A stretch of 64,000 nucleotides of DNA from Tubulanus polymorphus (taxonomy: Eukaryota > Nemertea > Palaeonemertea > Tubulaniformes > Tubulanidae), in assembly GCF_964204645.1 (NCBI RefSeq), contig NC_134030.1:9050278-9114277 (forward strand), given 5' to 3'. Positions 1 to 63,922 of this stretch are shown here, in pieces. Below the pieces are notes generated by a model. It worked only from the letters and a program-made list of their open reading frames with translations. It was not told where the DNA came from and did no database searches. Each line of letters starts with the position of its first letter. Positions within the stretch are counted from its first letter, which is position 1. The position numbers were made by a program, and so were the translations under genes.

Positions 1-66
1 ATTACTATCAGATTTGCCAGAATTTTTCACTTAAACCCTTTCATTTTTGTTCTCATTTCTTTCTAG

Positions 67-27500: not shown

Positions 27501-30500
27501 ATCTAGTATTTGAACCCTGAAATTCTTCACTGAAACAATCCATCCGTTTCATAAAGCCCTGTGAACGAACCTTTTTCAGAGTCGTGCGGATATCACAACA
27601 CGATGTGAATATATGTCGTAATGTGGCTTCGGTAGGAATATAATCATGAATCACTGCACGCTTTTTCTTCGTTTCAGCCATGACGGATAGAATACACTTT
27701 TTATCCGCTACATCAGCAACATTCAATCTACCAAGTCAATTTTAACAATGCTAATAATGTTTGATTCAAACATTATTAGTGATAATAATACTCACTAATA
27801 GTGTTATTGATTCAATGAATCAATAACACTATTATTGAGTATTATTATCACCGAGTCCGATTATTAGGTAATTAGAAAAGGAACTTTTTATTCTGGACTG
27901 GAGGTCATAGTCAGATGAAAAACGAAGAAATTAACCTTGAAAACCTCTATAATAATAACGCATCAATCAAAGTTATAAGTACATGCATTTGTGCAATTTG
28001 GCTTTCAAGTATTCTCACACAGAGGAACGCAAATTCTTGGGTAGTTGGAGAGCAGGGATGGATCGATATCAAGATGATATAAAGTAAGGAAAGGCCTTTT
28101 GTTCGGGGCTTGCGATAATCCAAGCAATTGAATCAGCGGTAAATGAAGTCTACTACATCTCAATGATTGTGTCGAGAGATTTAAGTACTAAATATAAGGG
28201 TTCAAAAGATTTTACATATACGTAGTACACATTAACCTTGTGAATAAAAATTCAAAGAAAGGAGCTTAGAATTTGCGGAATTTTTAAATCTTACCTCTGT
28301 AAAAGTCTTTGGACCTCGGACGGTTCATTCTCACAAACGATGCTCACCGAATCACCGGGTTCGTATTGATAATCCTATTAAAAAAAAAGCGCGAAAGATC
28401 GAAGAAATAACTCTCGTGTAATCAAATCGAATGATCTGTACCCAATTATTGCCCCGATAGACTTACAGGCGCTTCTAATTCCAATTCAAGTGTCTTCTTC
28501 ACCGCGTCGACGCTGGTCAAAACTGTCGCCTTTGTTACGGCAACCAAAGCGACCGAGCTCGCGGCTGACGGTAGCTTCGCTCCGTTTTGTATCGAACTTT
28601 GACTAGAGTCCTGAAAATCGAAACAATCCTCCTTCGTTTCTACTAACTATTCCAAAATTGATCGGCTATCATATAGAATATTTGGCCGTACAACACTTAC
28701 CCATTTTTCATTGCTGAAGTTTATTTCTATAAACGGCGGGCTGACTACGGGCAAAGAAAGGTTTGCTTCGGAAAGGGGAGGGATAGATGAGGTCAGAGAA
28801 CGTTCAAGCGGAGGAGTCGAAGTCAGTTCAGATTCTACTGGTTCTTTTTGAACGGAAACTTGAGTTTGTAATTGATTTTTATTCACTGTTTGATCACCGT
28901 CCACCGAGTCACTGACGCCATTAGTTATTAGGACAGATTCCCTGTAGCCATTCGAGATTGTTACTGATTCGCCTATTTCAAGATCTGATATTCCGTTTTC
29001 AACCTTTTCGACTAAATTTTCACGATCTTCCGTATCGTGGTTATGACTATTTTCTGCAGTCTTTGGCTCGTTAGTATCAGCATTTTCGTTTATCAGTGGA
29101 GGCTCTGAAACTGCGTTGTTGTAACTCGTTTCTTCATCAAGGTCAGATACACCCAATTCTTTCTGTAGTACAGGCCACAGTCCATCCATCCATGGCTCCA
29201 CAACTACCTCTAGCCTGCAAAACAAACAGGTACCTAAGATACAAGATAATGTAACATATTGATGATGGTCTCGTAAGGACTTAATGTTAAATGATACCGC
29301 CTCAACCAAATATTTACAAATGACAGGAAAACGTTTGATTGAAACGACGTAGTGTCCTCAGGCTTGTTAAGGTTTTATGCGAGGCTAGTCATTTGTTGGG
29401 GGATTGAATTCTGACATAATTGGCAGACGAAATTCCAAAATCGCACATGTTCCATAGTTTTTCAGAGTTATGCAGTTTCTGGAACTTATCACCATAGAAA
29501 CTAGGGGTCCAAAAACATGGTGGCCACTTGGAACGCGGATTGTTTGGTCAACAATCTGACAGTTTCAATATTCAATGCCCCCTGGTAAAACACAGAAACC
29601 AATGATCACAGCGCAATCCAAGAACATGTCATAAACCTATAACTGTGCAATTAAATGTGGTAACACAATATCTATACATCCCAAAATATGCCCTAAATGG
29701 AAATACTAGATAATTTCCCCATTCATCGACCATGATCAAGTCAATGACCTGATAGCGAGCACTTACCCTACAGCATCATCTCCATATCCTGTAGCGTAGA
29801 AGTGTTTGGCGCCGAGTTCTTGCAACCTTTCATCGAATATCCGACAGCAATTACAAAAGTTTGTATAGTTCGAATCGCCCAAACCTATCGCGAAAAACAT
29901 CAGATTCAGTATGGAAAAACATCGACTACTCAAACCAAGAAATGAAAACTGATTAATCCTGTATTACGCACCTAGTATAGCGTATTTGACATCGCTGAGG
30001 AGATCGGTGGGTAACGTTTTTTTCTTGATCCGACGCCAAAATTTCAGAGCGGTATCCGGAGGGTCTCCTTCGCCGGTCGTCGAGACAACGATGACGACGT
30101 ACTTTTCACGCTCGATATTGAACTGAAAAGGCGATCGAAAAAGACGTATCGTTAAAGGGGTTAACCGGGGGTCAAAGGGTGCTGACGCTGTCATTTTTAT
30201 TTAAGAGGCCTTGCCATGTCCCAAGAATGGAAACTGAAAACAGTACTCCTGTCAACTTTAGGCCCGTATTTAGGTCGAGAGGGTTCTTAATACCCCAAGG
30301 ACCCAACATTCCTGCTAGCACCTGAAAAAAGTTCCACTTTCATGAAAATTGGACCTCCCCCCTGAGACATGGATGGCTACGGGCACAAACTTGGTCATTA
30401 GATAATTTGTTGCATCATTTAATCCACAAAATTGTTTATTTTCAACGTTTGAAAATCCAACTTCATTGGTCCAGGTCTGCATACACAGAGATGAACCCAT

Positions 30501-30961
30501 TTCAATCATTGAAGTGCCAGTTTGTATTTTGCAAAACAATTTCTTGACCGGCAGGTCGTCCTTTGGATAAGTCATCAATATATAATGATCACTACGATGA
30601 ATTAAATAAGTTCAACTGTTATACATAGAGGGGATGGTTGGCCGATCGGCATTGATGACATGGTGACTTAATTGCAATCCAGTCACTGAATAAGTTGAAG
30701 GATGAAAAGAAACTTTGGCTGATGGTGGCCAGTAAGAGTAGTCTAGAATGAGAAAACGAAAACAAGCACTACCGTATCTACATTACAGAATTTGTTCATC
30801 AGAATTTTTTGACAAACCTTTTTATCAGTTTTGCTGAGACAGTGAAGTTCTGGATGAAGATTGTACGAAAGAGCAGTTTCAAACATCTCTTCAGCAATCG
30901 CCTCTGCCTGACCCGTCTGCGAGCCGTACACCAACAAGAATCTACCCTTTTTTTCTGGCAT
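24509..30961 (-). CDS. MTRR: Methionine synthase reductase (complete, 14 exons)
   Basis: Diflavin reductase that passes NADPH electrons via FAD and FMN to reactivate cob(II)alamin methionine synthase. Exons in gene order: 30818-30961, 29972-30122, 29767-29884, 28701-29214, 28467-28610, 28295-28374, 27571-27727, 27076-27256, 26651-26693, 26260-26446, 25751-25869, 25346-25432, 25014-25249, 24509-24588; all phases agree, giving 746 residues (human about 700). The start [17 protein letters not shown] leads straight into the FMN-binding loop; [13 protein letters not shown] and [10 protein letters not shown] complete the flavodoxin domain. Exon 28701-29214 is a long Ser/Glu-rich linker. The FAD domain shows [20 protein letters not shown] and [14 protein letters not shown] bind NADPH. 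The C-terminus YLEDVWS keeps the Trp that stacks on FAD. The extra length lies mainly in the linker. Related P450 or nitric oxide reductases are excluded by the linker position and the C-terminus. Confidence 0.93.
26729..27025. mobile_element. Relative of the CAGGGTCCCTAC element inside an MTRR intron
   Basis: Opens GGTTCCCTACAGATC and closes near GGCCCTGTAGAG. Internal CTCCTT/AAGGAGTTT motifs match the 18402-18842 element in reverse orientation. Its ends are decayed. Confidence 0.45.
27748..27858. repeat. Nested palindromes in MTRR intron
   Basis: CTAATAATGTTTGAT pairs with ATCAAACATTATTAG-like sequence next to it, and GTGTTATTGATTCA pairs with TGAATCAATAACAC, flanked by ATAATAATACTCA / TGAGTATTATTAT. 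The result is a cruciform-prone AT-rich stretch. Confidence 0.6.
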
Positions 30962-31196
30962 TTGACTTTGATTGATGATTATGCTAATGTTTACGAATAA
31001 CCACTAATTTCACGCAATTCTCATAAATGATCTGTTTAAAATATAAAAGTTATTTATATTATATTAGCATATGTTTAAAATATAAAATATAACAAAGTTA
31101 TCTTTTAAGATAAAGATAAGAAATCTAATTTCATCAAACAAACAAACAAAGCCAAGAGTTTCCACAAAATTTTCGAAGAGTCAAAATCAGGTTTAT

Positions 31197-31357
31197 TTAC
31201 GATCTTTTACTGCCGGCCGTCCGTTGTATAATCACATAGACATGTTCATTGCGACGGTGCGTTACGAAATGACGTCCGGATAAGGTTGATGTTGATCTAT
31301 AAACAGTGAATTTGGTGGCAGCACCGTACGGTCCCCAAGCTGAATTTCTGTGAACTA
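31197..31357 (-). other. Unassigned C-terminal ORF (possible terminal exon), low support
   Basis: On the minus strand an open frame reads AWGPYGAATKFTVYRS, then SGRHFVTHRRNEHVYVIIQR, ending at a stop that overlaps an AATAAA. A splice-acceptor-like TTAG lies at the border with the MITE at 31358-31701, which would have landed just upstream. I recognise no family. It ends about 235 bases before the MTRR start codon. It may be a decayed gene end or chance. Confidence 0.2.
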
Positions 31358-31701
31358 AGGCGTTTTTACGAGCATCCGATTTTTGCGATCGATCGTAGGA
31401 ACGCATTTACGAGCACCGATTTTTGCGATCGATTTCACAATCGGCGTTTTTACGAACACGATTTTCCGATCGATTTTTGAAATCGACCAACTCGCTCGGC
31501 GAGCGATTTGGCGATTTGATTTCCAAGATGGCGGCACCGGGTAGTTCAAAACCATACATTTTTTTCCTCAACGTCGCCATATTTATGTCATGTGATTAGC
31601 CAAATCCATCGTCATTTTTACGAACGTTCAATTCGATCGTACGATCGGAGCAAATCGTTCACGAAATCGATCGCAAAAATCGGATGCTCGTAAAAACGCC
31701 T
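31358..31701. mobile_element. MITE with AGGCGTTTTTACGAGCATCC termini, upstream of MTRR
   Basis: Opens AGGCGTTTTTACGAGCATCC and closes GGATGCTCGTAAAAACGCCT. The paired ends continue inward as GATTTTTGCGATCGAT / ATCGATCGCAAAAATC, so arms exceed 30 bp. CTA lies on both flanks, a possible 3-bp target duplication. The left part holds three partial repeats of TTTTTACGA(G/A)CA. Confidence 0.78.
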
Positions 31702-31785
31702 CTAATATATAATACTACCACGAGCATCCTCGCTTGCCAGGGGTCCGGTATCGCTCCCGAACTCGCTTCCACCAGCCCCCTGGCC

Positions 31786-31989
31786 CACAGGGGCTCGTAT
31801 CAGAGTTGTAGGTAATGTAAAAACGATAATCTGTTAATCCAATGTATATAGTTTATATAAAATATTATTTGATATATATAATGTATATAGTTTATATAAA
31901 ATATTATTTGATATATACTATATAGGCCTACGTTGGATTAACAGATTATCGTTTTTACATTACCTACAACTCTGATACGAGCCCCTGTG
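31786..31989. mobile_element. 204-bp hairpin element with arms of about 60 bp
   Basis: Opens CACAGGGGCTCGTATCAGAG and closes CTCTGATACGAGCCCCTGTG. Pairing continues inward through GTAATGTAAAAACGATAATC / GATTATCGTTTTTACATTAC. The loop is an AT-rich 38-bp unit (AATGTATATAGTTTATATAA...) present twice. It looks like a recent MITE insertion, given how well the arms match. Confidence 0.8.
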
Positions 31990-32003
31990 CCCTGGCCTGT
32001 GTG

Positions 32004-32260
32004 TTCTGATGTTGATTTTCTGAGATACAACTCAGGTTTTCTTAAGAATTAGAAGTTATACGTATTAAATTGAATGAGCTCAACATACACAGAATGAATT
32101 GTTGTTGTATCATGGTAAGTTTGAAAAACGGATGAAACATGAATTGCAAAGTCAATCCAGGTTTAATTGTTGGTATCATGTATACCGGTATCGGTTTAAT
32201 TTCAGAAAGTAACCTCAATCACGAATCAAAGAGATTAACGAATCCAGCATTATTTAACCT
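32004..32260. repeat. Dispersed duplicate of 46080-46310, copy 1
   Basis: About 250 bp, from TGTGTTCTGATG through GAGATACAACTCAGG, GAATTGTTGTTGTATCATGG and CAATCACGAATCAAAGAGAT, recurs in the same orientation at 46080-46310 with modest divergence. Here it lies immediately 5' of the TXNL1 remnant. It may be an intron piece of the TXNL1 source gene or an unrelated transposon. Confidence 0.75.
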
Positions 32261-32302
32261 TTAATAGAAATGCTTTAACCCTAACCCTGATCACTTCTGT
32301 AG

Positions 32303-33182
32303 GTGCGGCCCTTGTCATCAAATCGCGCTTGTTTTCGAAGGATACACCGCCAAATATTCTAATGCCGTTTTTCTAAAAGTCGAACGTCGATAAATTGACC
32401 GTAAGTCCAAGAGAGACAAGTTCGACCGTACTTTAAGCGTCCAAAAAACCCGTCGTATTTTGCTTTAATGATTTATTCGTCGGTTTTTTAGGAAGCGTTG
32501 AATCGGTACAATATCTCAGCGATGCCGACCTTCACCTTCTTCAAAAACAAGGTCAAAGTCGAAAGGAAAACGTCAAAAAGCATTATCAAGAGCCAGGAGA
32601 AAGTGATGAAACAGTCGAAGTTAAAGGCCACGTACCGGTAAGTTTGTGAAATATAGTAGACTCTGTCTCTTACTTCGGTAAAGTTGAGACTGGTAAAATT
32701 CTACCCCGAGTTGGTGTCAAATACTGAGTAAGAAGTTTGTGAAATATAGTAGACTCTGACTCTTACTGCGGTAACGTTCTCTTTTTTGTGAAATTTGGTG
32801 ATTGTTTATTTCACGTATGTTTAGATATTTCAGTCACGGATTTATTTGGAATTTCAACCTGAATTGAGACAATGAATTCTGAGATATTTTCACCATCTGT
32901 AGAACTCTGTTTACAGCGGGACCTCGTTTTAAAAATTTATCAGTTAATACAAAACTAGAATTCCATTCCAGATAAGACAATATCAATTATTTCCATACTT
33001 GATAACGAGTTATAACTAACAGATTTTCTGGTGCCCTGAAGTTCGTTGCAACGAGGTTCCGCTGTATAATTTTCTAAATTCAAAGAATGTTTTACAGACT
33101 TTTTAACATCAATAATTAACCACTAAGAAATACTTTCTTTTTATTATTTCAGGTAGCGGGAAAGAAAGGCGAGAGTTATTGA
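32303..33182 (+). pseudogene. TXNL1: TXNL1 (thioredoxin-like 1) remnant: frameshifted, PITH domain lost
   Basis: TXNL1 is a cytosolic thioredoxin with a C-terminal PITH domain that associates with the 26S proteasome. Exon 32303-32400 reads CGPCHQIALVFEGYTAKYS then NAVFLKV, with the CGPC active site, but one extra base near 32381 shifts the frame; exon 32492-32637 reads YNISAMPTFTFFKNKVKV and then changes frame to KKHYQEPGESDETVEVKGH. The short last exon 33153-33182 gives VAGKKGESY and stop, matching the family's conserved C-terminal end. Residues between thioredoxin and C-terminus (the PITH domain) and the first exon are missing. Introns are kept, so it arose by DNA duplication or decay in place, not retroposition. 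AATAAA follows at 33335. A working, heavily revised short gene is possible only if both frameshifts are sequence errors. Confidence 0.75.
32915..33066. mobile_element. pogo-like MITE inside the TXNL1 remnant intron
   Basis: Opens ACAGCGGGACCTCGTT and closes AACGAGGTTCCGCTGT, an imperfect inverted repeat of the same CCTCGTT type as 3117-3262. It lies in the intron before the last TXNL1-like exon. Confidence 0.55.
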
Positions 33183-33334
33183 TGGCGAGGGTCAATATTG
33201 AACGTACATTATTTCACCAAGAAACAAAGATTAGGAACTTAAGGGATTAATTTCACCAGAGACACATTACAACAGCGAGCGTATGAATTTGCACGAGGCA
33301 AATTGAAAATTACCACTTTTATTGTATCGTGATT

Positions 33335-33340
33335 AATAAA
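33335..33340 (+). other. Polyadenylation signal after the TXNL1 remnant
   Basis: AATAAA about 150 bases past the terminal stop of the TXNL1-like last exon, a plausible relic of the parent 3' UTR. Confidence 0.45.
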
Positions 33341-33794
33341 CTCAATATTATTATTATCATTTACTGAATGGTTTTTCTTTTGAGTTTATTTTTCTTCAGA
33401 GGACCGGCATCAATGATGACATGATTTTTGTAGGCTTAAGCAAAATTTAACACATAATGCGGAAAAAAGTGGCAGGTGGCAGTTTTTCAGTCAGTGAATT
33501 GCATCAATGCCTAATCATGACTTGTCTGACTTATCACAACTAGTATCCTCATGGACAGACTGACCCTGTACGCATGATTTAATACCGCCATAATCTTTGA
33601 CCAAAATCAAAAATGGGATAAGAGTAAATTGGAACAAGATACGAATATGGACTTTCCTAAATTTACATGATGATGTACCGTTTAATCCAGTATCAAAATT
33701 AAAGAAAACAATTTCTTTTTCAAATTATGAGTGGTAAGCATGAAGTTTTGGCAGAATTTCAGAGGATCCGTGCTCCAAGTAATTAGAAAATCCC

Positions 33795-33970
33795 TTTTAA
33801 GGGATTGCTTCGGGCAGGGATTAATAATTCTGTCTTCCTTTGCGTGCTAGAATTCATTGATTCACTGCGGGATCGCTTGCCTGTCTTCCTTTGAGTGTTA
33901 GTATTCATTGATTCCCAGTGGGTTGCTTCGGGCAGGGATAAGTCTTGTCTTCCTTCGAGTGCTAGTGCGG
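33795..33970. repeat. Three diverged copies of a unit of about 65 bp
   Basis: GGATTGCTTCGGGCAGGGAT, TGTCTTCCTTTGAGTG and ATTCATTGATTC recur three times in tandem. No coding frame is shared. The rest of 33341-34240 shows nothing I can support. Confidence 0.6.
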
Positions 33971-34619
33971 GCAATCCAGTTGCGCTACTCTATTTTCGTC
34001 ACATGTAATCTTACAGGTATGTCAGTTACCGACGTCACCCGGCACACCCTGTCGGTAAATGGTGAAAGTAAGGCGTCGTCATTCTGGGTTTCGCGTTCTG
34101 TGTGAGGGCGTGTAGAGGGCAGTATATTCCTGGCTGGCTCATTGTCTGGTGTTCTTGGCATGTGACCGGCGACGGAGAGCTGAAAAGCTTTCGGACATTA
34201 GTTTTGTTCCGTACCAGGTTTTCATCGCTCTTCTCTTTTTTTTCATTTCAGGACTCCCAAGATGAAGAAGAAGATGCTGAAGGCGACTACAACGAAGACG
34301 ATGCCGAAAAAAGAAACTGAATTCAGCAATATTGAAAGTTAAGTTGATACACATGTAAATTACGATGCGTGATACGGAAAGGATTGTGTAACTAGAGAAT
34401 ATCATTCTTTTACTCATTTCAGGTTAATCCGGAAAGGCCCATCTAAAATCTGCCCACCAGAAGTGTCCACAAAAGACTCCACGTTGAATGAACCAAACAC
34501 CGAAAGTCCTGCCGCAACCAAACCTGGCAGTCTCATCCTGCATGGCAACAGGAATGCATACATACATAAAGCTAAGTTGATTTTTCATATCTGGGGTAGA
34601 ATGCATAGGCACTGGTGAG

Positions 34620-47917: not shown

Positions 47918-48895
47918 TCAATATGTTCTTCGAGAGCAAAATAACAATTTCATTTGTTGTTTGAAGTTTTTACTGTATATATAATAAAATATACCGTTTA
48001 CAGCCGAATTCAGGGATTGAAAAACTTCATTCAAAAGCAATGCCCACCAGATATCAGACCATGGTAAATGAAGTCTCAAAACATTGAAAAACATGTCAGG
48101 GGAGACTGACACCATGAATATAGTTGATGCGACAAATACCATTCTGTGCGCCGTTCCATCTTGTTTACTTATATCTGCACCGGTCAAAAGTTTCCTATTT
48201 TTAGCGTGGATATGTAGTTTTATTATCAAGACAAAATTAAAAAGTTGAACGAGAGCGAATGGTAAATATGTAGTGAAAACATTTTCTATTAAATACGAAT
48301 ACTTGGGCGGGTTGTGAACCGTTTTGGCCCCGAGGACAGTCAGGCCGTATGAACATGTTTTTTTAACCCGCACAATGATTCGGTCTCGCGTGCGATATGA
48401 AGCAAATCCACTCCACGTGACAACCAAAACGGCCGAAAATAAACAACAATGATTCAAATTCCAAAATCTCTTAGCTTTAAGTGGAAAACAGATATGAAAT
48501 GCTCGGTCGAACGTCACTAATAAGGTCAAACCGTTACGAATGTAAAAAGCCCATTTTATGATGAGGTTACCCACTATATACAGCTCAGGAGCTCCCAAAT
48601 CGTCGTCTAAATACAGTCCCGTTTTTCCATGGCGAGTAAGTTTCACAAACCAAACTAAATGGTTATAAATAATGATTCCAATGCAACTCATTGCGTCGAA
48701 AGCCGCCAGTATCATTAACAGGAAATGCGAAGTCGCGGAACGATTCATTTTATGCAGTCGATATAGCAAGACCAACGTTACCGAGTTGGCGACAAGGCCA
48801 AACCATGCGACCGGTCCTATCACAGTTACCATGACAAGATTCCAAACGATGCGATCGTATTTCCAGCATTCCTCCACAGCTGTGGCATTTAACAT
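47918..48895 (-). CDS. Orphan rhodopsin-like (class A) GPCR, intronless, 325 residues
   Basis: Seven-transmembrane receptor by pattern. N-terminal NAT is a glycosylation site. TM1 has GLVANSVTLVLL (Asn 1.50), TM2 ILAAFDAM (Asp 2.50), TM3 ends TFDRAFHICFPLKAK, a DRY variant, TM4 has VVTWSGF (Trp 4.50), TM5 YLPFAL (Pro 5.50), TM6 SVSPDMFF (Pro 6.50) and TM7 LNSAVNGIFYYIYSKNF, an NPxxY variant with Gly for Pro. No Cys stands at the usual top of TM3, though loop 2 has one. It resembles invertebrate peptide-type (FMRFamide-receptor-like) orphans; the ligand is unknown. It is only distantly related to the three receptors at 57.9-63.4 kb. No intron is needed. Confidence 0.88.
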   Translation of the reverse strand: MLNATAVEECWKYDRIVWNLVMVTVIGPVAWFGLVANSVTLVLLYRLHKMNRSATSHFLLMILAAFDAMSCIGIIIYNHLVWFVKLTRHGKTGLYLDDDLGAPELYIVGNLIIKWAFYIRNGLTLLVTFDRAFHICFPLKAKRFWNLNHCCLFSAVLVVTWSGFASYRTRDRIIVRVKKTCSYGLTVLGAKTVHNPPKYSYLIENVFTTYLPFALVQLFNFVLIIKLHIHAKNRKLLTGADISKQDGTAHRMVFVASTIFMVSVSPDMFFNVLRLHLPWSDIWWALLLNEVFQSLNSAVNGIFYYIYSKNFKQQMKLLFCSRRTY

Positions 48896-52359: not shown

Positions 52360-55300
52360 AAAACGGACATTGTGTTTCACCAATGGTTCTCTTATCTATA
52401 TTATGATATGTATTTTCAAAAAAGTTTCTTTTATCTATCGTGAACACAGTGCTTAACTCAATAACACGACTTACTTGAATTCACGACTCATAAAACGATT
52501 ATCCTAATGTTCGTTATGATTTGTTTTCTTAGGAACACAACGAAGGGGTGGAAACTTAAATTCTAATTTTCTGTTAAGGTGTGATGATATATCTTAGCGC
52601 CGCAATACTTTCGTGTTGCCGCGAAAGGATTGCTGCTGAATGTATTTCATTACGCACACGCAAAAAGCAAAATGCTTTTCAAAAGAAATGAGCATAACAT
52701 ATATAAAGTGTATATATGGAGTTTGATTAAGTATGTGGAGTGTGATTTTGTATGTGATTTAGTATCTTAGAGTGTGATCTAGTATGTGGAGTTAACGTAT
52801 AGGTTTCATATCGATTCTTTAACGGTAGATATTCAACCACCGACTCAAAACGGATTTTTCGAATAACTCGTCTATGCCATATTTAGTTCAATATGCAATT
52901 CCAGTTGTTTTTAGAAACGAAGGTTTAGTTGAATAACAACCGTCCCACTCGTCCGAGAAATAAAGTACACTTCTACTATACTCAAACATCTGTAATCTAT
53001 CAACTGTTTACTTCATTTTCTTTCTCAAACTCTTTAGGACTTTTCTAGGCTAAGTCATAGCAAAATTTTGTGGAACCAAATGAAATTGTTATCCACTAGA
53101 GTTGTAAGATCTAACGATGAACCTCTCAAGTCACCCCGTGTTAGACTAATCTCAGCACAGAACCTTCCGGTACTCCGCCCCAGTCTGGAATACTTAACCT
53201 AGTCCAATTAAATCTAGTCCGCGTCATTGATGTTTTTTAAATCTAATTTCAAGACCCATTCTTTCGTCAAAGCTTTTGATTAAACTCTCTTTATTTAACT
53301 CTGTTCACATGAAAGCCAATTAGAACATTTCATTATCATTCAGGGCAAGATCTAGGGGGACTTGTGAGAATTGTTAAAGTCCATCAAATGTTTTGAGTGT
53401 CCTTTTTCATTTTATCAACAAACAAAAAGTTGGTGCATTTCTTAGCGCGAGTATACGCTTGATATTGTTTTTTGGACATCAGAGCGCCTTTTGAGATGCG
53501 ATGAGTTTTTTAAAGTTAGCCCCTCAGAGTGAGACTACACCTAATATTGCCTTTTTGGATATCAAGGTGCCATTTGGGGTGTGACAAGTAGTGAGGGTCC
53601 GTTACCATAGAACTGCTGAGGGTGTAGGTTCGAGGTCCTGTTATATATAAGTGACAAGAGTTGCCTCCACAGAACAAATGGATGGTTTGATTATCCCCTC
53701 AGTGCGGATGTTGCCTAATATTGCCATTGCCTTTTTGGCCATCAAGGTACCCTCCCGGAATGTGACGAGTTCTTCAAAATTAGCCCTGGGTCCGCCCCGG
53801 TTATCTATATCAACCTTGATTCATTCTTTTATCAATAAAATTGAATTGGATTGGATGCAGTACGACCACGCATATTTGACACGCGGTGATTGGTGAATTA
53901 TCTCCCGAGACGAAACTCAATCCGAAAATGAGTTAGACGCCCTCTGCGGCCGTAAGACACCTCCAGTATAATAAAAATGCCAATCAGTTTCTAATGAAAG
54001 CTGCTATTACGATTCACTCATCGGGACAATAAGGACGTTATCAGACAAATAGCAAGCGAACAATGAAAAAACTGCAGTCATTTTGAAATAACAAGGTAGG
54101 ACCATAAAAATGAATATGGTGTTTAAAGGCGAATTGATAGAATAGCAGGTAGTAGGTGTTTTGGTATACATAAATAGATCGCCTTTTTTAGAATCTTGAT
54201 AACTACGTGTAAGAGCAAAAAACTAATAATCAATTTCAGAAAAAAAAGTATGAAAAGTTTCGCGTAAAACTGGGAAAGATATAAAGCGTTATTTTGAACT
54301 TTTGTTATGAATTGATTGGGGTATATATACAGATGTATTTCTTGAAGGGATTCATAAACGCGCACTCTCAATTGACGTGATCAGTGACCGGAGACCTTTA
54401 AACCACTCGGCCAAATATAGGTCGAACAGTAGTTCATGAATTCGGGTGGAATTCACAGGAGATCAAATGGAAAGTGCAGGTGAGGTAACTGTTGTCTTAT
54501 TTAGGGATCAATCGACATGTACAAATGCGTATTTTCTTTTTTTACCGTTTATGAATATTCAAGACGACTTAAAGTACAATTTACACCGAGTTTAGATTCC
54601 TGATAATCGCATTCCAAAATAATAAATTACCACAAATTTTGATAATCCATTATTCTGCTTAGGAGCTCCATATTTGGATTGAATCGTCTTTGAACATACC
54701 GATCTACCCGCGAAAAAAATGTGTGATGAATAGATCGGATAAAAAGTTTTAAAACAGACTATATATTACATAGTCTATAAATTTCGCACGCTGACTAACG
54801 ATTTACCCAGAAAATATACACCACAGTCTGGCAATATTTCAAAAACGGGAGACTGACCTCCAAAATTTAAACTCCGTTTCGGTCGGTTTTATCTTGTCGT
54901 CAAAAACGTTCGACACAATAGAAAACAAATGCGTCAGTGTCAACTGAATGGGGTGTTCTCCGCAGACGTGTCGGGCCGATCTTTTTTTTCGCCCGATCCA
55001 TTATGCGCTCAATTACGTACGAGTGGCGGTTAGTGCAATAAAATTTTATGAAAACAACATTTAAACGATTAATAAATGTATTCTGACAAGTTTATAATTC
55101 CGAATGACTTAGAACTCGGAATATTAAGGCCTACTCGTCTCCGAGGTGTAGGAAGTCTCACACATTCGCTCGTCGGGTCGTCCCGCGTTCTTCAAAACGT
55201 ACATTCTCAAAATACATTCTATGAAGTGAGTATCCTTTGAAAGAAGATTAAGTCGAATCGGAACAAATATCGGATAACTAACTATACTCCGTGTTGCGAA

Positions 55301-55816: not shown

Positions 55817-58800
55817 TTTCTTGGGTAGACGACTCAATGGCTATGGACACGTGTATGGGTGAAATTGATTATGAGGTGATCGATGAGGTAGATGATTGTC
55901 CGGGTATGTGTTTATGTGGAGTTTTATGTTTTCATAGCTTCATTATTTCTATCAGCTAAAACATATTTTCTGTACATTTCCGTGACCCTACGCTTCGTTA
56001 ATACTTATTTTTGTCATAAAAGAACATAAACTTTGACAAAATAGATAAACATCAATACAATCCTGTATTGCGCAAACGTAATATGCTTCAGCTAACCCCA
56101 TGCTGCCAAGCAAATCACCGAAGAATCGCCACATTAATGGGTTAATGTCAGCGTTAAAATATTTTCTTCAGCGAAAGATCATTGACTGCGACCAAAGAAT
56201 CCGGACTCAGTTCCACGGTTGTGAGTCAAAGTTCACTCTGAGTTGAAATAAGCCGAATTTCAATGTTCTACTTCGAATCAAATCTTAACTCACAACATGG
56301 AACTGGATCCTGAATAATGACATCAGATGATTCCGGAGAAAAACATAAATTAGATAAGCATAACTTCATGATTAATATTTTTATTACTTAAGTCTGAGTT
56401 TGATTCCTTGGTGCGATGGGTTTAGGATTAGCCCAGCATTGTGAATATTCCGCGAAAAAAAAACGTTAAAAAGAGTAATGTACAGATTCGGACGCGATTT
56501 AACAAATGGCGACACAACCAATTGGCTTAACGCAATTTTCTTTTTCGTAGAGGATCACAAAGAAAACCATCATATAACTGGAAGAAAACCTCACTCCACG
56601 CCTTTAACGCTCAAGTGGTAAGTTAATCCTTTAGTTATTTTCCCAATCAACAACCGTATATGATAGGCTGTAGACACTGAAATAACGTATCCTAGTATAT
56701 CTGCCGATTTACTATAATAATGATAATATCTACCAGTATTTCATCATCAATTAAAGAGAATACAAAATTAGTACTTCGGAATTGACCGTAATTTACTGAT
56801 ATGGTTATCCATCTATGGAATATTTTTGCTAATCTATGTTAATGTAAGGATATATCAATTCCGAAATCTGTTTAAAACAATTCATTCTTGCACAGGATAC
56901 GATAGGAACCCGTCAGAAACAGCAAATTTTTGATAAAAAGTATTTTCTAATTCCATATCCTAACAGGCTCAGATATATGTAGAAATTGATAACATAGTTA
57001 CAAGATGAAATGGTGTATAAAATCGAATAGAGTAGCCCATGACAAGAGAAATCCCACAATAACGAAGCCAAGATTGAAAATTCTATAACAGAATGATTAT
57101 ATTTGAGGAGCGACGTTTCGGCTAACACCTGTTAGCCATCATCAGGCGTACTGAGAACAAAATGAAATAACAGGATATTTATACAAGAATGTGACAAATG
57201 ATAAAGATTAAAGGATTAAGATTTAAGTAATTAAATAACAAAAACCGGAACACTAAGGAAGAAACCAAAGAAGGCAAACGACAAACTATAGGGGATGTAG
57301 TGCGATATTAAAGTAATAAAAAAACAGAGCCCAGAGGGTTCAAAGGCAGACAAACTAAGGGGTAATCAGACAAAAACAAAAGGCAAGAACATCAGAGGGA
57401 TAATCAAGGAATGAGTGAGGGAGAGAGTGAGTTAGTGGAAGTGTCAAACGGACGAAAACAAGCTAACGGGATTAGAATAATGGGGGTACAAGTCAAGCGA
57501 GAAATTTAGAGATCGAAATATTGTGAGAAGAAAATCCGTTATTCAAATTAACACATTTATCCATATTTTCAATAATATTTCTCTCGTTATTATCATACAC
57601 TGATATTGTGTATCTAAAGAGTAGCCCATCCTCGTCTAAAGAGTAGCCCATCTGGAGTTCTTCGTCTTGGTCTTACGAATGTACGTGATTATGGTCAATA
57701 GAAGACTATGGTCCTTTTGACGCTATATCTTATCGAAATCTCCTTTCAAAATATGGAATTGGCCGCAATTTACAGATATGGATATTCATCTATTGAATGG
57801 TTTACGTTAATGTAGGGATATATTTTCAAAATTTGGTTAAAAGAATACATTCATCATTGCTCAGGACACGATATACTTCAAGAAAAGCGTCCGGAAAAGC
57901 AAATTTTTGCAAAAAAGTATTTTCTAATTCCATATCCGAGTAGGAGATATATGTAGAAATTGATAATGTAGTTGCAGGATAAAATGATGTTTAAAATCGA
58001 ATAGAGAATCTGTAGTTCTTCGTCTTGGATAGGAATGTAGGTGACTATGGTCGATGGAGCGGTTGTGATGGTAAACGCGATCGAAACTGTAACCAACATG
58101 ATCGTGGTCCGTCTGGTCTTACTTGATTTATTGTCAGACGACACCAGCTTCGGACCATTGAACAATCTTATGATGATTATAAAATTCGAAATAACGATGA
58201 AGCTCAGAGGTAGAACATACGAATATACAAAGCTATACGTGTACGCAATTTGCTGAGCGACCGTCTCCATAACGCAGTCCAACTGTTCTGAATGCTGCAT
58301 CAGGGTGATTATCCACGAACTTATGGCTAAATTCGTCAAAAAAATCACCGCTATCATTGTCCTGGAGAATGTCGGGGTACAAATCAATCTCGACGAAATC
58401 GGGAATAGGACAACGGCCAAACGCTCCAACGTTATGGCGACGATCACCCATGCGCTCGTATATGCGCAAACAACGCTTGTAAATTCGTATAGAATACACG
58501 TTGTTGAACTCTGAAAATTGATAGTAAAACCAAATCTAAATAAGACATATTGTACGACAGGCATGCCTGACATAACAAGACAAACAAGACAGTCACAAAT
58601 AGACAAAAATCTTACGTAGTTCGCGTAGGAATACTGGTGAAATTGTATGCTGCCCATTATGAGGAAAGCAGCCGAATTTCCGAACGCACCTAGACAAAAT
58701 ATGACCGGGTACACGCAAAGCATAAGCGCGTAAACGGTTCCTTTTGCGTGAATCAATGAATTGAGAACGATGTTACTTGCGTATACTAGAGATACTGCCG

Positions 58801-61800
58801 CTGTGTCATTGTCCATGGTAAAAAAAAGATTCCGATGCCACTAACGCATGTGCACGTTACTAATTCAATTGGCAGTCGTAACTGCGATTGGCCAGGAATT
58901 AATTAATGAGCGATATATTACTAAGAAAAGTTGTTTCACCCGATTTTCTTAATACATTGATTCCGTTTGCGCGTGGAATGAATTTTACTACTAAACCGAA
59001 AAATATGCCTAATGTAAAAATCTATACCTCCGTAACTGAACGTTTTCTCTATTCGTAACACAACGATTTCGGTGCGAGTAATACATATGCTTGTAACTTT
59101 ACTAATTGATTGTCGTGACGGTGATTGGTCGGGAATGTTTGTCCTCAAAGTTTTATCGATATTACTCAGAAGACTAAAAGTTTTCCTCACTGAGTTCGAC
59201 GATTTTTTTTAACATCCGATTTGCTTGCCCGTGAAATTGAATTCACTACTAAACCGAAAACTGATGTGAAAATCCATGCTTTCATAACTGAGAGAAATTT
59301 GCTCTTCAATACCATAATTTAATAATGTTTATCGGGTCTGGGACGTTTATGTAGCCATTTAAATAGATAACAGAAAATTTGAAAGATATTTGTTTTGAAA
59401 AGAACTCCACATGTATCATAATATAGTTGGTTTCAAGTAATAGTATATTGTGGTCAATCGTGTCAAATGCAGCGGATAAATCAAGTAGTATCGGGATCAC
59501 GGCATTTCCTATACCAAGAGCACCGGTGAATACCATTACTAAGTTTGAGAAGTGCCGCACCCGTAAAATTATAGGGCATGCGATATGGCGTCTGTTTAGA
59601 TTCATATCAGAAAAATTGTATTGCATGGACATTTTCATAAGCTGAAATTTAGATTAGATTTTTCCAAGGTTCCAATCCCAAAAATTAAAGAAATTATATT
59701 CTCGAGGTCGTATGATTGGGGAACCCGTTAACGATGTTTTGTTACTAAGTTTGATCATCATTTCCTTTTCCATATCTTGGATTGACCGTCATTAAAAAAT
59801 AGAGATGTTTATCTATTAAGTGACCAACGCTGAGTTATGCCGATGTAGGCCGCACTTTCTCAAAGAATAAATTCATGACCAGGTCACAACACCCCCTTAA
59901 GGAAAGCGGTACAACAGCAGATTTTCGTAAAAAAGTATTTCCTAATTCCATATCCGAGTAGGAGATATATGTAGAAATTGATAATATAGTTACATGACAA
60001 AATGATGTTCAAAATCGAATAGAGAATCTGTAGTTCTTCATCTTGGATAGGAATGTAGGTGACTATGGTCGATGGAGCGGTTGTGATGGTAAACGCGATC
60101 GAAACTGTAACCAACATGACCGTGGTTCGTCTGGCTTTACTTGATTTATTATCAGACGACACAAGCCTCGGACCATTGAACAATCTTATGATGATTATCA
60201 AATTCGAAAGAACGATGAAGCTCAGAGGTAGAACATACGAATATACAAAGCTATACGTGTACGCAATTTGCTGAGCGATCGTCTCCATAACGCAGTCCAA
60301 CTGTTCTGAATGCTGCATCAGGGTGATTATCCACGTAGTTATGGCTAGATTCGTCGAAAAGATTATCGCTATTATCATCCTAGAGAATTTCGGGGTACAA
60401 ATCAATCTCGACGAAATCGGAAATAGGACAACGGCTAAACGCTCCAACGTAATGGCGACGACCATCCATGCACTGGAATACGCGCAAACAACGCTTGTGA
60501 ATTCGTATAGAATACACGTTGTTGAACTCTGAAAATTTATGGCAAAACCAAATCTGAACAAGACACGTTGCACGACAGGCATACCTGACATAAAAAGACA
60601 AACAACACAGTCACAAATAGACAAGAATATGACGTAGTTCGCGTAGGAATACTGGCGATATTGTTTGCTGCTCATAATGAGGAAAGCAGCCGCATTTCCA
60701 AACGCACCTAGACAAAATATGACCGGGTACATGCAAAGCATAAGCGCGTAAACGGTTCCTTTTGCGTGAATCAATGAATTGAGAACGACGTTACTGATAT
60801 AAGCTGGAGATACTGCTGCCGTATTGTTACTCATGATTCTAATATGATTTAATCAAACAAACGAGTCCAGTGCAAGTAACGCATGTGCACGTTACTAATT
60901 CAATTGGCCATTGTAACTGTGATTGGTCGGGCATTTATTGTCTTCGCAGTTACTATGCACTACTAAGACAATTTATTTCATCTCACTGACTTTGATGAGA
61001 ATTTTTTATAAACTGATTCCTTTGCGCGTGAATATAAATTTTACTTCCAAACCGAAAACTAATGCGAAAATCCATACTTCCATAACTGAAAGAAATGTTC
61101 TCTTTTGTACTATCTCTGTATCTGGTCAGATACGTCAATTGGAGATTTGAAAGCAAACTCGTGCAAAGTTGTTGCGTACTTGTTTTGATGGCTTTGGAAA
61201 TATGACTGATGACTAGAATGATAGAAATTTGCCTACGTATATGGGTTATGTTTGAAGCCATTTCCAAATTTCAGGACCTAAACTCTAAGCTAAAATTAGT
61301 TAGTGAGTTAACTCCGGGTAGAGTCTTAGCTCACAACTGTGGAACTGGGCCCAAAAGATCATCACATCACACCTTACCCCAATGCATTTATTTCCTTGAA
61401 AGTTAAACAAATAACAACTGGTTACCATAAATATATCCAAAACCTAGTTGTCTAAAGACACCAAGAATGAAGAAATTCTAGCATAAAAGTTACTCTAAAA
61501 CATAAGTATTTAAGTTGATATTGGACAACGTTTAGCAAATTTGATCCCTGAGTCTGAAAAGCATATCAGCTGTTATTCAGATCATCATAATAATGAAAAC
61601 TTCAATTTTTTCCAAAAAACTCGATAGAAATTTATGATATTGTCAACACATTGTCTGGAAATAAAGTATTGGCATTGATTGAGTTTCTACGGAAATGGTT
61701 TAAAGAATTATCTATGCGATTAGATATCCCACTTACTCATAAATTCAATAATACCCTCCAATCTGGAGTTGTCCGCATGTTGCACTTAAAATTGTTCGGG

Positions 61801-63922
61801 TCTTCCCTCTTTATGAAAAAGGTGAATGCGATTCTTTTTACAATTATCGACCCTTATCTATTACACTATGTTTTTCCAAGATACTAGAAAAACTCGTTCA
61901 TAAACGTTTAGTCGCGTTTTGTGATACATTGGAAATTAATGATTATTACCAATTTGGATTCAGGGAACATTTAATTAATATCAATGGCATTAACTTGCAA
62001 CGTCGATGAAATAGCAGCCAATATTGACGAAAAAAGGACGATTGTAATATTGTTGGATTTGTCAAAAGCTCTTGACACAGTAGATCACCGAATTTTTTTT
62101 GGGAATATTTTCTTCATGTTCGATGAATGAAAGGCTGTGAAAATTGAAGGTATCCTATATGTGCTGATTAGTTTAGGGCAAATCGTAGCGCCTACAAATT
62201 GATGACATTCGAACCCCTCCACCGATTGACTTTTTGATAAGGCGAAAATTGGTGTTCGATTTTTCCAGTTCCAAAAATTGAAAATATTGTATTCTTGAGG
62301 TCGTACAAATGCGGAGACACGACATCATCGTCGTTTTGCTGCTAAATATGATCGTCATTTTATGTTTATCTATGACAAATGCTGATTTATGCTAATGAAG
62401 CAAGGTTTTTTTCACAAACTTTTTAAACAATTCATTCTTGACTAGGTCACAACACACCCTTAAGGAAACTGGCAAAAACAGCAGATTTTCGAGAAGAAAT
62501 ATTTCCGGATTCCATATCCGAGCAGGAGATATATGTAGAAATTGATAACATAGTTACAGGATAAAGTGATGTTTAAAATCGAATAGAGAATCTGTAGTTC
62601 TTCGTCTTGGATAGGAATGTAGGTGACTATGGTCGATGGAGCGGTTGTGATGGTAAACGCGATCGAAACTGTAACCAACATGATCGTGGTCCGTCTGGCC
62701 TTACTTGATTTATTATCAGACGACACCAGCTTCGGACCATTGAACAATCTTATGATGATTATCAAATTCGAAATAACGATGAAGCTCAGAGGTAGAACAT
62801 ACGAATACACAAAGCTGAAACCATACGCATATTGCTGAGCGACCGTCTCCATAGCGCAGTCCGACTCTTCTGAATGCTGCATCACGGTGATAACCCACGA
62901 AGTGATTGTTAGATTCGTCGAAAAAATCACCGCTATTATCATCCTTGAGAATTTTGGGGTACAAATCAATCTCGATGAAATCGGGAATAGGACAACAGCT
63001 AAACGCTCCAACGTAATGGCGACAACCATCCATGCGCTGGAATACGCACAAACCACGCTTGTGAATTCGTATAGAATACATGCGTTTAAACTCTTTAAGT
63101 TGATGGTAAAACCAAAGCCGAATAAGACATATTGTACGACAGGCATACCTGACATAAAAAGACATACGACAAAGTCACTGATAGACAAGAATATGATGTA
63201 GTTTGCGTAGGAATACTGGCGATATTGTTTGCTGCTCATTATGAGGAAAGCAGCCGAATTTCCGAACGCACCTAGACAAAATATGACTGGATACATGCAA
63301 AGCATAAGAGCGTAAACGGTTCCTTTGGCGTGAATCAACGAATTTAGAATGACGTTGCTGATATATGATGGAGATACTTCTGCCGTATTGTTGATCATGG
63401 TTAAACAGATGATTCCGGTACGAATATTGCGCATGCACGTATTTCATCTAATTTACCATCGTATAACTGTGATTGGTCGAGGTTAATAGTCTTCGCAGTT
63501 GATCTATTTATATATATATTGAATCTAAAAAAAACGTATCCTACGTATCTTACTGACGATGAATACACTTTTTAACTCTAGGTCGCTTTCGGAAATGGAA
63601 TTCAATGTTAGAATTCGAAAAAGCTAATATGAAAATCTATCTTTCAGTACATTATCAGAAAGGTATTCATGTATGAAAATTCGTCTGCTTATAACCGTCG
63701 GAATGTGGGTTAACTCGCAACTATTTCCAACGTTCTAAATATAAAGTGTTCCAATCGAGATGATTTTGATCATTCTTTTGACTATGCGTTATTTACAGGT
63801 TAGAGGAGAACTACGAAGTAGCTGAGGGTGTCTGTATACCTCGCAGCACTTTGTATATGCATTACCTTGACTTCTGTAATCGAAATACCAGCCAGCCAGT
63901 TAACGCTGCCAGTTTCGGTAAG
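55817..63922 (+). CDS. RFX4: RFX4-like transcription factor, internal exons (partial both ends)
   Basis: Three plus-strand exons join in phase: 55817-55903, 56551-56617 and 63799-63922. The last reads [40 protein letters not shown] then K, the start of the RFX winged-helix DNA-binding domain, with the Trp codon split across the preceding intron. The second gives [13 protein letters not shown], the Lys-Pro-His-Ser-Thr-Pro segment directly before this domain in RFX4. The first gives [29 protein letters not shown]; its place is supported by phase and position only. RFX proteins bind X-box sites and control ciliary and developmental genes. The rest of the domain and the C-terminus lie right of the window; the start codon is unassigned. 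The 7.2-kb intron 56618-63798 holds three GPCR genes on the opposite strand. RFX6 and RFX1-3 fit the third exon less well. Confidence 0.8.
56208..56310. mobile_element. MITE of the TTCCACAGTTGTGAGTT family, copy 5
   Basis: Opens CAGTTCCACGGTTGTGAGTC and closes CTTAACTCACAACATGGAAC. It lies in the RFX intron between its first and second visible exons. Confidence 0.6.
56913..57705 (-). pseudogene. Broken fourth copy of the GPCR cluster, split by an insertion
   Basis: Only the 3' end of the receptor survives. On the minus strand 57705-57641 matches the TM6-TM7 linker coding of the intact copies (their [12 protein letters not shown] region), and 57040-56913 matches TM7 ([27 protein letters not shown]). 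Between them lies a foreign 578-bp segment flanked by GAGTAGCCCAT. The copy also has a small indel in TM7 (YIYLSLLGY) and its 5' part ends where the 3' flank of the next receptor begins, so it is truncated as well as interrupted. It shares the same 3' flank (GGATATATCAATTCCG...AATTCATTCTTG type) with the intact copies. Confidence 0.8.
57041..57618 (-). mobile_element. Penelope-like element 3' piece with hammerhead-like motif
   Basis: A 578-bp insertion in the receptor pseudogene, flanked by the direct repeat GAGTAGCCCAT (57030-57040 and 57619-57629, plus a third tandem copy at 57641-57651). Near its minus-strand 3' end (57145-57112) it has CTGATGATGGCTAACAGGTG then TTAGCCGAAACGTC: a 7-bp stem GGCTAAC/GTTAGCC between CTGATGA and GAAAC. 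These are the boxes of hammerhead ribozymes known in Penelope-like elements, though one extra T precedes the stem. No reverse-transcriptase reading frame is left; the rest looks like 3' untranslated sequence. Class assignment rests on the motif and its position. Confidence 0.5.
57878..58816 (-). CDS. Class A GPCR, tandem copy A, intronless, 312 residues
   Basis: Seven-helix receptor with NDT glycosylation site at the N-terminus, [10 protein letters not shown] in TM1, [10 protein letters not shown] in TM2, Cys at the top of TM3 ([11 protein letters not shown]), [12 protein letters not shown] as DRY-like motif, loop-2 Cys (QLDCVMET), Pro in TM5 (SYVLPLSF), TTAPSTIV in TM6 and [11 protein letters not shown] in TM7, an NPxxY variant with Phe for Pro. 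The NF(x)IY form is common in invertebrate FMRFamide-type and other peptide receptors; the ligand is unknown. The usual CWxP of TM6 is absent. Very similar to copies B and C throughout, with a diverged last ten residues (CFSGRFS). It sits antisense in the RFX intron. A CCAAT box lies 71 bases upstream of ATG. Confidence 0.9.
   Translation of the reverse strand: MDNDTAAVSLVYASNIVLNSLIHAKGTVYALMLCVYPVIFCLGAFGNSAAFLIMGSIQFHQYSYANYVRFLSICDCLVCLVMSGMPVVQYVLFRFGFTINFQSSTTCILYEFTSVVCAYTSAWVIVAITLERLAVVLFPISSRLICTPTFSRTMIAVIFLTNLAISSWIITLMQHSEQLDCVMETVAQQIAYTYSFVYSYVLPLSFIVISNFIIIIRLFNGPKLVSSDNKSSKTRRTTIMLVTVSIAFTITTAPSTIVTYIPIQDEELQILYSILNIILSCNYIINFYIYLLLGYGIRKYFFAKICFSGRFS
58850..59060 (-). promoter_or_regulatory. 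Conserved 5' module of GPCR copy A
   Basis: A block with minus-strand CCAAT (58891-58887), GTGCACGTTACTAATTCAAT, GCGTGGAATGAATTTTACT and ACTAAACCGAAAA is repeated before copies B and C. Its conservation exceeds what the spacers show elsewhere, so it likely holds promoter or 5' UTR sequence; no TATA box is obvious. Confidence 0.45.
59085..59310 (-). promoter_or_regulatory. Orphan copy of the GPCR 5' module, no receptor attached
   Basis: Same order of motifs as the receptor modules: CCAAT on the minus strand at 59128-59124, then CCCGTGAAATTGAATTCACT and ACTAAACCGAAAACTGATG, AAAATCCATGCTTTCATAAC. It lies directly upstream of the copy A module with no receptor ORF between them, so it marks either a lost receptor or a duplicated promoter. 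Confidence 0.5.
59400..59560 (-). mobile_element. LINE reverse-transcriptase fragment
   Basis: A minus-strand frame reads [20 protein letters not shown], the catalytic block A (LDLSxAFDTxDH) of CR1/jockey-type LINE reverse transcriptases. The flanking sequence does not continue the domain, so it is a short decayed piece between receptor copies A and B. Confidence 0.7.
59884..60834 (-). CDS. Class A GPCR, tandem copy B, intronless, 316 residues
   Basis: Second intact receptor of the array. Starts [20 protein letters not shown] with an NNT glycosylation site, and keeps [10 protein letters not shown] (TM1), [10 protein letters not shown] (TM2), [19 protein letters not shown] and [12 protein letters not shown] (TM3), [10 protein letters not shown] (TM5), [19 protein letters not shown] (TM6 and loop 3) and NYIINFYIY (TM7). 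It differs from A mostly by conservative changes in TM2-TM4 and in a longer C-terminus ([11 protein letters not shown]). A CCAAT box is 88 bases upstream of ATG. The 3' flank resembles that of C, with GGTCACAACAC(A/C)CCCTTAAGG at the stop. Confidence 0.9.
   Translation of the reverse strand: MSNNTAAVSPAYISNVVLNSLIHAKGTVYALMLCMYPVIFCLGAFGNAAAFLIMSSKQYRQYSYANYVIFLSICDCVVCLFMSGMPVVQRVLFRFGFAINFQSSTTCILYEFTSVVCAYSSAWMVVAITLERLAVVLFPISSRLICTPKFSRMIIAIIFSTNLAITTWIITLMQHSEQLDCVMETIAQQIAYTYSFVYSYVLPLSFIVLSNLIIIIRLFNGPRLVSSDNKSSKARRTTVMLVTVSIAFTITTAPSTIVTYIPIQDEELQILYSILNIILSCNYIINFYIYLLLGYGIRKYFFTKICCCTAFLKGVL
60885..61110 (-). promoter_or_regulatory. Conserved 5' module of GPCR copy B
   Basis: CCAAT on the minus strand (60926-60922), GTGCACGTTACTAATTCAAT, GCGCGTGAATATAAATTTTA and CCAAACCGAAAACTAATG, AAAATCCATACTTCCATAAC, in the same order as the other modules. 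Confidence 0.45.
61265..61353. mobile_element. MITE of the TTCCACAGTTGTGAGTT family, copy 6, left end decayed
   Basis: The right end TTAGCTCACAACTGTGGAAC then TGGGCCC is clear, preceded by GAGTTAACTCCGGGTAGAGT; the left arm is reduced to TTTCAGGACC. It lies in the RFX intron between receptor copies B and C. Confidence 0.55.
61650..62150 (+). mobile_element. Decayed LINE reverse-transcriptase segment (CR1/jockey-like)
   Basis: Across several frames the plus strand reads [42 protein letters not shown] and then [17 protein letters not shown]. These are the ordered blocks leading to the first catalytic Asp of LINE reverse transcriptases. Frameshifts near 61800 and 61980 show it is dead. It has opposite orientation to the fragment at 59400-59560. 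Confidence 0.75.
62460..63398 (-). CDS. Class A GPCR, tandem copy C, intronless, 312 residues
   Basis: Third intact receptor. An upstream in-frame ATG at 63434 would add 12 residues, but the Met at 63398 ([20 protein letters not shown]) aligns with the starts of A and B and keeps the NNT site, so I choose it. Motifs: [10 protein letters not shown] (TM1), [10 protein letters not shown] (TM2), [11 protein letters not shown] and [12 protein letters not shown] (TM3), [11 protein letters not shown] (loop 2 Cys), YVLPLSF (TM5), TTAPSTIV (TM6), NYVINFYIY (TM7), C-terminus CCFCQFP. Loop 2 and the TM4 and TM5 ends ([22 protein letters not shown]) are the most changed parts relative to A and B, as expected where ligand preference differs. 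A CCAAT box is 74 bases upstream of the chosen ATG. Confidence 0.9.
   Translation of the reverse strand: MINNTAEVSPSYISNVILNSLIHAKGTVYALMLCMYPVIFCLGAFGNSAAFLIMSSKQYRQYSYANYIIFLSISDFVVCLFMSGMPVVQYVLFGFGFTINLKSLNACILYEFTSVVCAYSSAWMVVAITLERLAVVLFPISSRLICTPKFSRMIIAVIFSTNLTITSWVITVMQHSEESDCAMETVAQQYAYGFSFVYSYVLPLSFIVISNLIIIIRLFNGPKLVSSDNKSSKARRTTIMLVTVSIAFTITTAPSTIVTYIPIQDEELQILYSILNITLSCNYVINFYIYLLLGYGIRKYFFSKICCFCQFP
63430..63690 (-). promoter_or_regulatory. Conserved 5' module of GPCR copy C
   Basis: CCAAT on the minus strand at 63476-63472 inside GTATAACTGTGATTGGTCGA, followed outward by sequence like AAAATCTATCTTTCAGTACA. It is the most diverged of the four modules. It ends about 110 bases before the RFX DNA-binding exon. 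Confidence 0.4.

Follow-up and report, generated by a model that had tools for sequence, protein, structure and literature searches.

A member of a large family of intronless receptors very probably entered, in antisense orientation, an older intron of an RFX4-type gene in Tubulanus polymorphus and was duplicated there in tandem, with each descendant retaining its own promoter and the host removing the array by splicing. In the sequence of events that we propose, an intronless class A GPCR, probably chemosensory, would have entered an already existing intron, which interrupts the DNA-binding domain at its first codons. Tandem duplication inside the intron would then have produced at least four copies, one of which would have decayed while at least two others exchanged sequence by gene conversion. 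Transcription of the receptors would most likely start at a short promoter upstream of each, in cells not shared with the host, and the host pre-mRNA would lose the whole array along with the intron. Positions given without a contig or locus name refer to the window, the whole stretch of 64,000 nucleotides that was analysed, C6:9050278–9114277 (Table 1).

The first-pass annotation had claimed two plus-strand RFX exons that share a split Trp codon, and both are present. Exons 3 and 4 join in frame across intron 3, and their TG/G junction (slashes mark exon boundaries) restores the conserved Trp codon opening the DNA-binding domain. The splice signals are strong (GTGGTAAGT, CGTTATTTACAG), with the donor CAAGTG/GTAAGT and the acceptor TTTACAG/G. 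A splice search based on GT-AG signals and frame continuity gave a partial host model of 14 exons and 482 aa, in which further RFX coding segments follow in order past the window end (10 more model exons, up to C6:9119433). Its introns measure, in order, 1337, 647, 7181, 494, 84, 88, 57, 815, 121, 195, 1314, 265 and 646 bp; intron 3 is the longest of the 13 in this partial model and the remainder span 57–1337 bp. Splice signals are weak where exon 8 meets its flanking introns of 57 and 815 bp, and these junctions are unsure. The spliced model matches the Pfam profiles RFX_DNA_binding (e-value = 2.4e-34) and BCD_RFX (e-value = 1.9e-93), so that both the DNA-binding domain and the BCD region of the RFX family are present, and the RFX1 DNA-binding domain (PDB 1dp7) aligns without gaps to model residues 53–127 across the split Trp (e-value = 6.8e-26). 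We tentatively take the gene to be RFX4 rather than RFX6. RFX4 and RFX6 are described as one RFX subgroup with a DNA-binding domain and B, C and D regions (PMC2533330), and the host resembles this subgroup in having the DNA-binding domain plus the B, C, D region.

Table 1. Features of the RFX4-type host gene and of the receptor array in its third intron (window positions).
Feature	Position	Strand	Basis
Probable first coding exon of RFX host (M E S A, phase 1 donor)	54467..54479	+	tied best donor/acceptor pair; start codon inferred
RFX host coding exon 2	55817..55903	+	splice search; alternative start 55739 scores equally
RFX host exon 3, ending in TG of split Trp	56551..56617	+	splice search, 1dp7 alignment
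RFX host intron 3, 7181 bp	56618..63798	+	splice model
Broken receptor copy, two pieces split by repeat	56778..57720	-	nucleotide comparison
Dispersed repeat inserted in broken copy	57090..57560		46 matches including itself, from 40 scored of 590 candidates
Receptor R1, intact intronless class A GPCR, 312 aa	57878..58816	-	ORF, Pfam 7tm_1
R1 proximal upstream block, CCAAT at -75 and -56 from ATG	58817..58910	-	shared with R2, in part with R3
Relic of receptor upstream region	59057..59306	-	71% identical to 60856-61104
110-aa ORF with reverse-transcriptase-like motif	59306..59638	-	ORF; no Pfam match
Receptor R2, intact intronless class A GPCR, 316 aa	59884..60834	-	ORF, Pfam 7tm_1, AlphaFold model
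Dispersed repeat fragment, LINE-like by eye	61600..62160	+	15 matches including itself, best other 83%
Receptor R3, intact, intronless, 324 aa (312 aa from homologous ATG at 63398)	62460..63434	-	ORF, Pfam 7tm_1
RFX host exon 4, start of DNA-binding domain	63799..63922	+	splice model, Pfam, 1dp7 alignment

Between these exons lie three complete, intronless minus-strand receptor ORFs (R1, R2 and R3) and one broken copy, each where the earlier annotation had put it. The receptor coding sequence falls wholly within the 7181-bp RFX intron and on the opposite strand, a nested arrangement provided that the intron is spliced as predicted. R1, R2 and R3 match Pfam 7tm_1 with e-values of 1.8e-17, 1.2e-16 and 7.3e-19, respectively. 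The broken copy is readable as C-terminal fragments only: one piece (56778–57032) matches the end of R1 (57878–58816) and its 3' flank at 76% identity, and a second of 53 bp (57650–57702) is 83% identical to the neighbouring part of R1. The dispersed repeat within this copy is flanked on both sides by a short direct repeat, GAGTAGCCCAT. Between R1 and R2, the 110-aa ORF carries a putative reverse-transcriptase-like motif.

Comparison of R2 with the PDB returned weak matches to receptor structures, the best being cholecystokinin receptor type A (e-value = 2.4e-8). The AlphaFold model of R2, based on an alignment of 18 rows out of the 21 used for the tree below, has seven long helices and a short eighth at a mean pLDDT of only 62.9, and the best 50 Foldseek matches listed for it are all class A receptors (best e-value = 6e-8). 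Both the 7tm_1 profile and the seven-helix fold of a class A GPCR are found, the latter in a model of modest confidence. Cys107, Cys181, E131-R132 and P254 are invariant in the 18-row alignment. In the E/DRY motif the residue that follows the invariant E131-R132 is not Tyr, TM6 is without the Cys-Trp of CWxP around the invariant Pro254, and TM7 reads NFxxY instead of NPxxY. By analogy, the receptors probably have a chemosensory role.

We searched the genome (267.8 Mb in 77 contigs) for the family with R2 as query and scored 126 of 1579 candidates. The scored matches are spread over all 12 large contigs (C1–C12) and, besides R1–R3, the other 123 show at most 49% identity. At a 20-kb cut they form 90 groups, 76 of which hold one scored match, and 35 of the 36 grouped neighbours are on the same strand; these counts and groupings are lower bounds, so some single members will have unscored neighbours. 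Since most of the candidates were left unscored, the genome may hold several hundred members. Members are intronless in the 18 loci read besides R1–R3. Contig C2 carries 34 and C8 21 of the 126 scored matches, with dense regions at C2:7.45–7.91 Mb and C8:1.72–1.82 Mb. A second kind of receptor-like ORF (L036:8149–9213, minus strand; 7tm_1 e-value = 2.8e-4, under the cut-off) lies near one family member, and receptors of different families may therefore be mixed together.

In a phylogeny of 21 family proteins, a branch supported at 100/100 separates R1–R3 from all the rest. The tree joins them to three divergent members from C4 and C6 and sets the remaining 15 apart, a placement made uncertain by long branches, and within the R1–R3 clade the grouping of R1 with R2 is supported only at 91/40. 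Values of dN/dS among the three pairs are 0.26, 0.24 and 0.21, at dS of 0.26–0.35, and codons 209–260 have a low dS (0.03–0.11) in every pair. Gene conversion was assessed by permuting the differences 5000 times per pair. For R1 and R3, neither the longest identical run (132 nt) nor the longest run without a third-position change (52 codons) was equalled in any permutation. For R1 and R2, the identical run was reached in 115 of 5000 permutations and the third-position run in 11 of 5000. For R2 and R3 the identical run was reached in 57 of 5000, and the third positions give conversion no support (904 of 5000 permutations as long). From these permutation counts, conversion appears clear between R1 and R3 and likely between R1 and R2, and is unshown between R2 and R3.

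Upstream of their start codons, R1 and R2 have in common a block of some 50 bp that contains two CCAAT motifs and is partly present in R3; the motifs are found at -92 and -73 from the ATG in R2 and at -78 in R3. Upstream bins of R1–R3 are 74–81% identical over 69–134 aligned bases (gaps left out), about the level of their synonymous sites (72–78%), so that promoter conservation is apparent, by eye, only for the short block. Exceptional conservation of the promoters, which we had considered, is not shown. CCAAT occurs within 300 bp upstream of R1–R3 and of 8 of 20 other members and is no family hallmark; the count skipped members with less than 1.5 kb upstream, and in L035 at least, the start codon had been set too far in. 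The sole other genome match found for the R1 upstream stretch is that of R2, where a missing match need not mean rarity, and such sharing only within the array fits duplication of the DNA in place, promoter included. Neither AATAAA nor ATTAAA occurs within 400 bp past any of the three receptor stop codons. Only 364–400 bp separate the R3 start codon from RFX exon 4, and the proximal R3 promoter and the host splice acceptor must therefore lie together in this stretch.

That overlap bears on an alternative in which the array is coupled to its host, with receptor promoters or enhancers driving the host or host transcription silencing the receptors. There is a precedent in Caenorhabditis elegans, where the nested gene ceh-10 makes a short polq-1 (PMC12274878). 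A possible sign of coupling is an X-box upstream of a receptor. With up to three mismatches, the X-box GTTRCCATGGYAAC has 11 matches in the whole window versus 5.6 expected (2 of 100 shuffles gave as many). One coding-sequence site, present in each of the three receptors, accounts for three of the 11, and the sole match upstream of a receptor (60904–60917, three mismatches) belongs to R2 alone and is absent from R1 and R3. A looser X-box pattern is at chance (9 matches versus 8.1 expected; 41 of 100 shuffles gave as many). RFX-driven co-regulation through X-boxes is thus not supported by this mild window-wide excess and single degenerate upstream site. Further, co-expression in opposite nested pairs averages lower than in neighbouring genes that are not nested (PMC12274878), and mammalian nested and host genes are typically expressed in different tissues, their overall divergence being not different from that of unnested pairs (PMC8467205). 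We consider coupling unlikely, and array and host are probably functionally independent.

In a more specific version of coupling, which we regard as distinctly improbable, the array acts as a switch on its host, and the R3 promoter stretch also starts a short host transcript from exon 4. The R3 promoter would lie in divergent orientation in the 364–400 bp before that exon, and cells with the receptors on would make the short transcript. The first in-frame ATG of that transcript (63857–63859) falls within the DNA-binding domain. Translation from it would yield a product that retains the BCD region (dimerisation) without an intact DNA-binding domain and that could inhibit RFX in cells expressing the receptors. 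The short polq-1 made by ceh-10 is the model for this proposed product.

We also searched the genome for RFX domains, which gave 19 matches listed at e-values up to 1, 13 of them over the cut-off. On C2 (22753070–22753516, minus strand), two RFX DNA-binding-domain matches lie 66 bp apart with one and two internal TAG stops, which may reflect a partial tandem duplication or read-through of introns. A paralog on C11 (locus L004), which we tentatively call RFX6-like, has an exon ending ...LTLQ TG/GTGAGT and a next exon starting CAG/GTTGGATGAG, that is, the same Trp codon split by the same phase 2 intron, here 1594 bp long (7379–8972 of L004). None of 21 receptor-family proteins matched the 10 kb of L004 around this intron at an e-value of 1e-3, and in this comparison of two RFX genes the receptor-bearing 7.2-kb intron is particular to the RFX4-type gene. 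This genome holds two such genes of the RFX4/RFX6 subgroup, with a common intron position. Because the RFX6-like paralog has the same intron without receptors, the intron probably predates the array, and the receptors probably multiplied within it. The simplest order, as far as two genes of one genome suggest, would be that the intron came first, that the two RFX genes then separated, and that the array arose last, in one of the two. The first-pass annotation had proposed that the array grew inside the host intron, and the single clade, the lack of any scored relative above 49% identity elsewhere and the receptor-free paralogous intron bear it out.

The receptors might instead have landed in this intron separately, each as a dispersed (retroposed) copy: no introns are seen in the members read, the family is dispersed, and the 3' flanks common to the intact copies are short (about 20–40 bp), as a 3' UTR could explain. 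However, R1–R3 are each other's only close relatives among the 126 scored matches, all on one strand, and have common upstream DNA for which no match was found outside the array, and we hold such repeated landing to be very unlikely. That the RFX-like exons come from different genes, with the array between them, is extremely improbable given the in-frame TG/G junction, the domain continuous over it, the downstream exons following in order and the identical junction in the paralog; as read from the sequence, both exons are one gene, and the claim of a single RFX host spanning them stands. An assembly error that put the array into the intron is just as hard to credit in a stretch of 93.9 kb (the window plus 29.9 kb beyond) that contains no N, on a contig (C6) of 23.0 Mb.

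We surveyed nesting elsewhere by reading 17 of the 76 scored singletons at 10 kb, in an order set by a seeded shuffle: L027, which had been selected beforehand for its kinship with the array, and 16 more (L028–L035 and L036–L043). One of the 16 is nested (L033), four lie beyond the start or end of a neighbour's coding part on one side (L028, L029, L032, L043), three are beside a recognised frame and ambiguously inside or outside it (L039, L040, L042), and eight are without a usable neighbour (L030, L031, L034–L038, L041). Nesting is undercounted here, since viewing was limited to the 7 or 9 top-scoring frames in each stretch (L033, L027 and L043 more fully); 19 frames were run against Pfam. 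Five of the 16 loci are not true singletons, as they hold a second or broken family copy (L031, L034, L037, L039, L043).

The receptor in L033 (4522–5469, plus strand) stands in sense orientation between frames matching cytosolic carboxypeptidase-like protein 5, the left at an e-value of 0.0023 (chain residues 132–217) and the right at 7.7e-10 (residues 275–333). The right frame also matches Peptidase_M14 (e-value = 1.5e-5); the left frame and a middle exon recognised by eye on the right side gave no Pfam match. On these matches, the receptor is nested in sense within a carboxypeptidase intron. In L027 (receptor at C6:5037978, plus strand) a JHY-like minus-strand frame lies to the left (e-value = 0.0017, below the Pfam cut-off) and also gives Get5_C (0.0073), while a 927-codon minus-strand frame to the right and a second frame taken for JHY gave no Pfam match; this receptor is perhaps antisense inside a JHY-like gene. 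Frames taken by eye as host exons that had no Pfam match at 0.05 are L033:3450–3782, L033:5802–6014, L033:7466–7768, L027:3619–3792 and L027:6245–9025. At the trio on C4 (L024–L026), a matrixin frame lies to the left and nothing was recognised to the right. The idea that hosts tend to be cilium genes (RFX4, cytosolic carboxypeptidase, JHY) was dropped, with three cases, some of the names tentative and one case unproven. The earlier annotation had noted that tandem receptor expansions usually occupy intergenic DNA; that receptors in a host intron are a peculiarity is not supported, since the family is spread genome-wide and at least one other member (L033) occupies a host intron, that of a carboxypeptidase.

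Opposite-strand nested genes are common in animals (PMC12274878, PMC8467205). Nested genes make up 4.3–8.7% of protein-coding genes in seven vertebrates, and 74.3% of simple nested pairs in human and 77.8% in mouse are on opposite strands (PMC8467205). C. elegans is reported to have 567 opposite nested pairs, ceh-10 in polq-1 among them (PMC12274878), which are like the present case in that a gene lies wholly in a host intron and one partner is a transcription-factor gene. Unlike ceh-10/polq-1, the present case has a transcription factor as host and receptors in tandem as the nested genes, and it is known from sequence alone. Intronless, lineage-specific rhodopsin-like receptors are known in Aplysia (PMC2700072) and flatworms (PMC3261222). 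The Aplysia AcCRb family comprises intronless rhodopsin-like GPCRs, 38 of them full-length at 319–364 aa, that are candidate chemoreceptors; at least some are clustered, with a putative non-LTR element between two neighbours (PMC2700072). Compared by description, the receptors here are alike in being intronless and rhodopsin-like, and are clustered in part, with one scored match in 76 of 90 groups; AcCRb has the signature WITAFVTFERCLCIA (PMC2700072), and the receptors here carry a different motif. The flatworm PROF1 receptors, likewise compared by description, are an intronless orphan rhodopsin-like family; PROF1-II has the TM6 F...T.P and TM7 NF..Y in common with the receptors here, whereas TM3 reads ERL here and DR[L/V] there (PMC3261222), and the receptors here clearly match Pfam 7tm_1.

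Our literature search on intronic chemoreceptor arrays found none, and only Drosophila glue genes surfaced. Each ingredient is known, and as far as this search shows, a tandem receptor array in an RFX4-type intron is a new instance. The array looks like the ordinary settling and multiplication of a large receptor family inside another gene, and illustrates a known process by which duplicates of large intronless families settle in introns. It offers a clear example of receptors that multiplied with their reading frames kept (dN/dS of 0.21–0.26) inside the intron of a conserved regulator. The receptor-free paralogous intron is a built-in control for the order of events, and the array can be used to ask whether receptor expression can couple to a neighbouring transcription factor.

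Finally, we noted several features around the host gene. Upstream of it, an unrelated intronless GPCR-like ORF of 325 aa (47918–48895, minus strand) is weakly Srw-like (e-value = 1.4e-4, just below the Pfam cut-off) and was unmatched by the 21 receptor-family proteins at an e-value of 1e-3. About 2.8 kb past the last RFX exon of the model, and beyond the window, C6:9122239–9122757 gives a weak match (27%, e-value = 1e-5) to family member L007 and is perhaps another receptor piece. Some 6 kb past that exon, also outside the window, an ORF at C6:9125663–9126049 (L002:1486–1872, minus strand) has no Pfam match and contains repeated RYGKR, MRFGKR and RFGR units that by eye resemble a neuropeptide precursor. 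Coding-like frames occupy window positions 1–20000 on the plus strand, RhoGEF-like by eye, and 25000–34000 on the minus strand, which by eye resemble a methionine-synthase-reductase-like flavoprotein.
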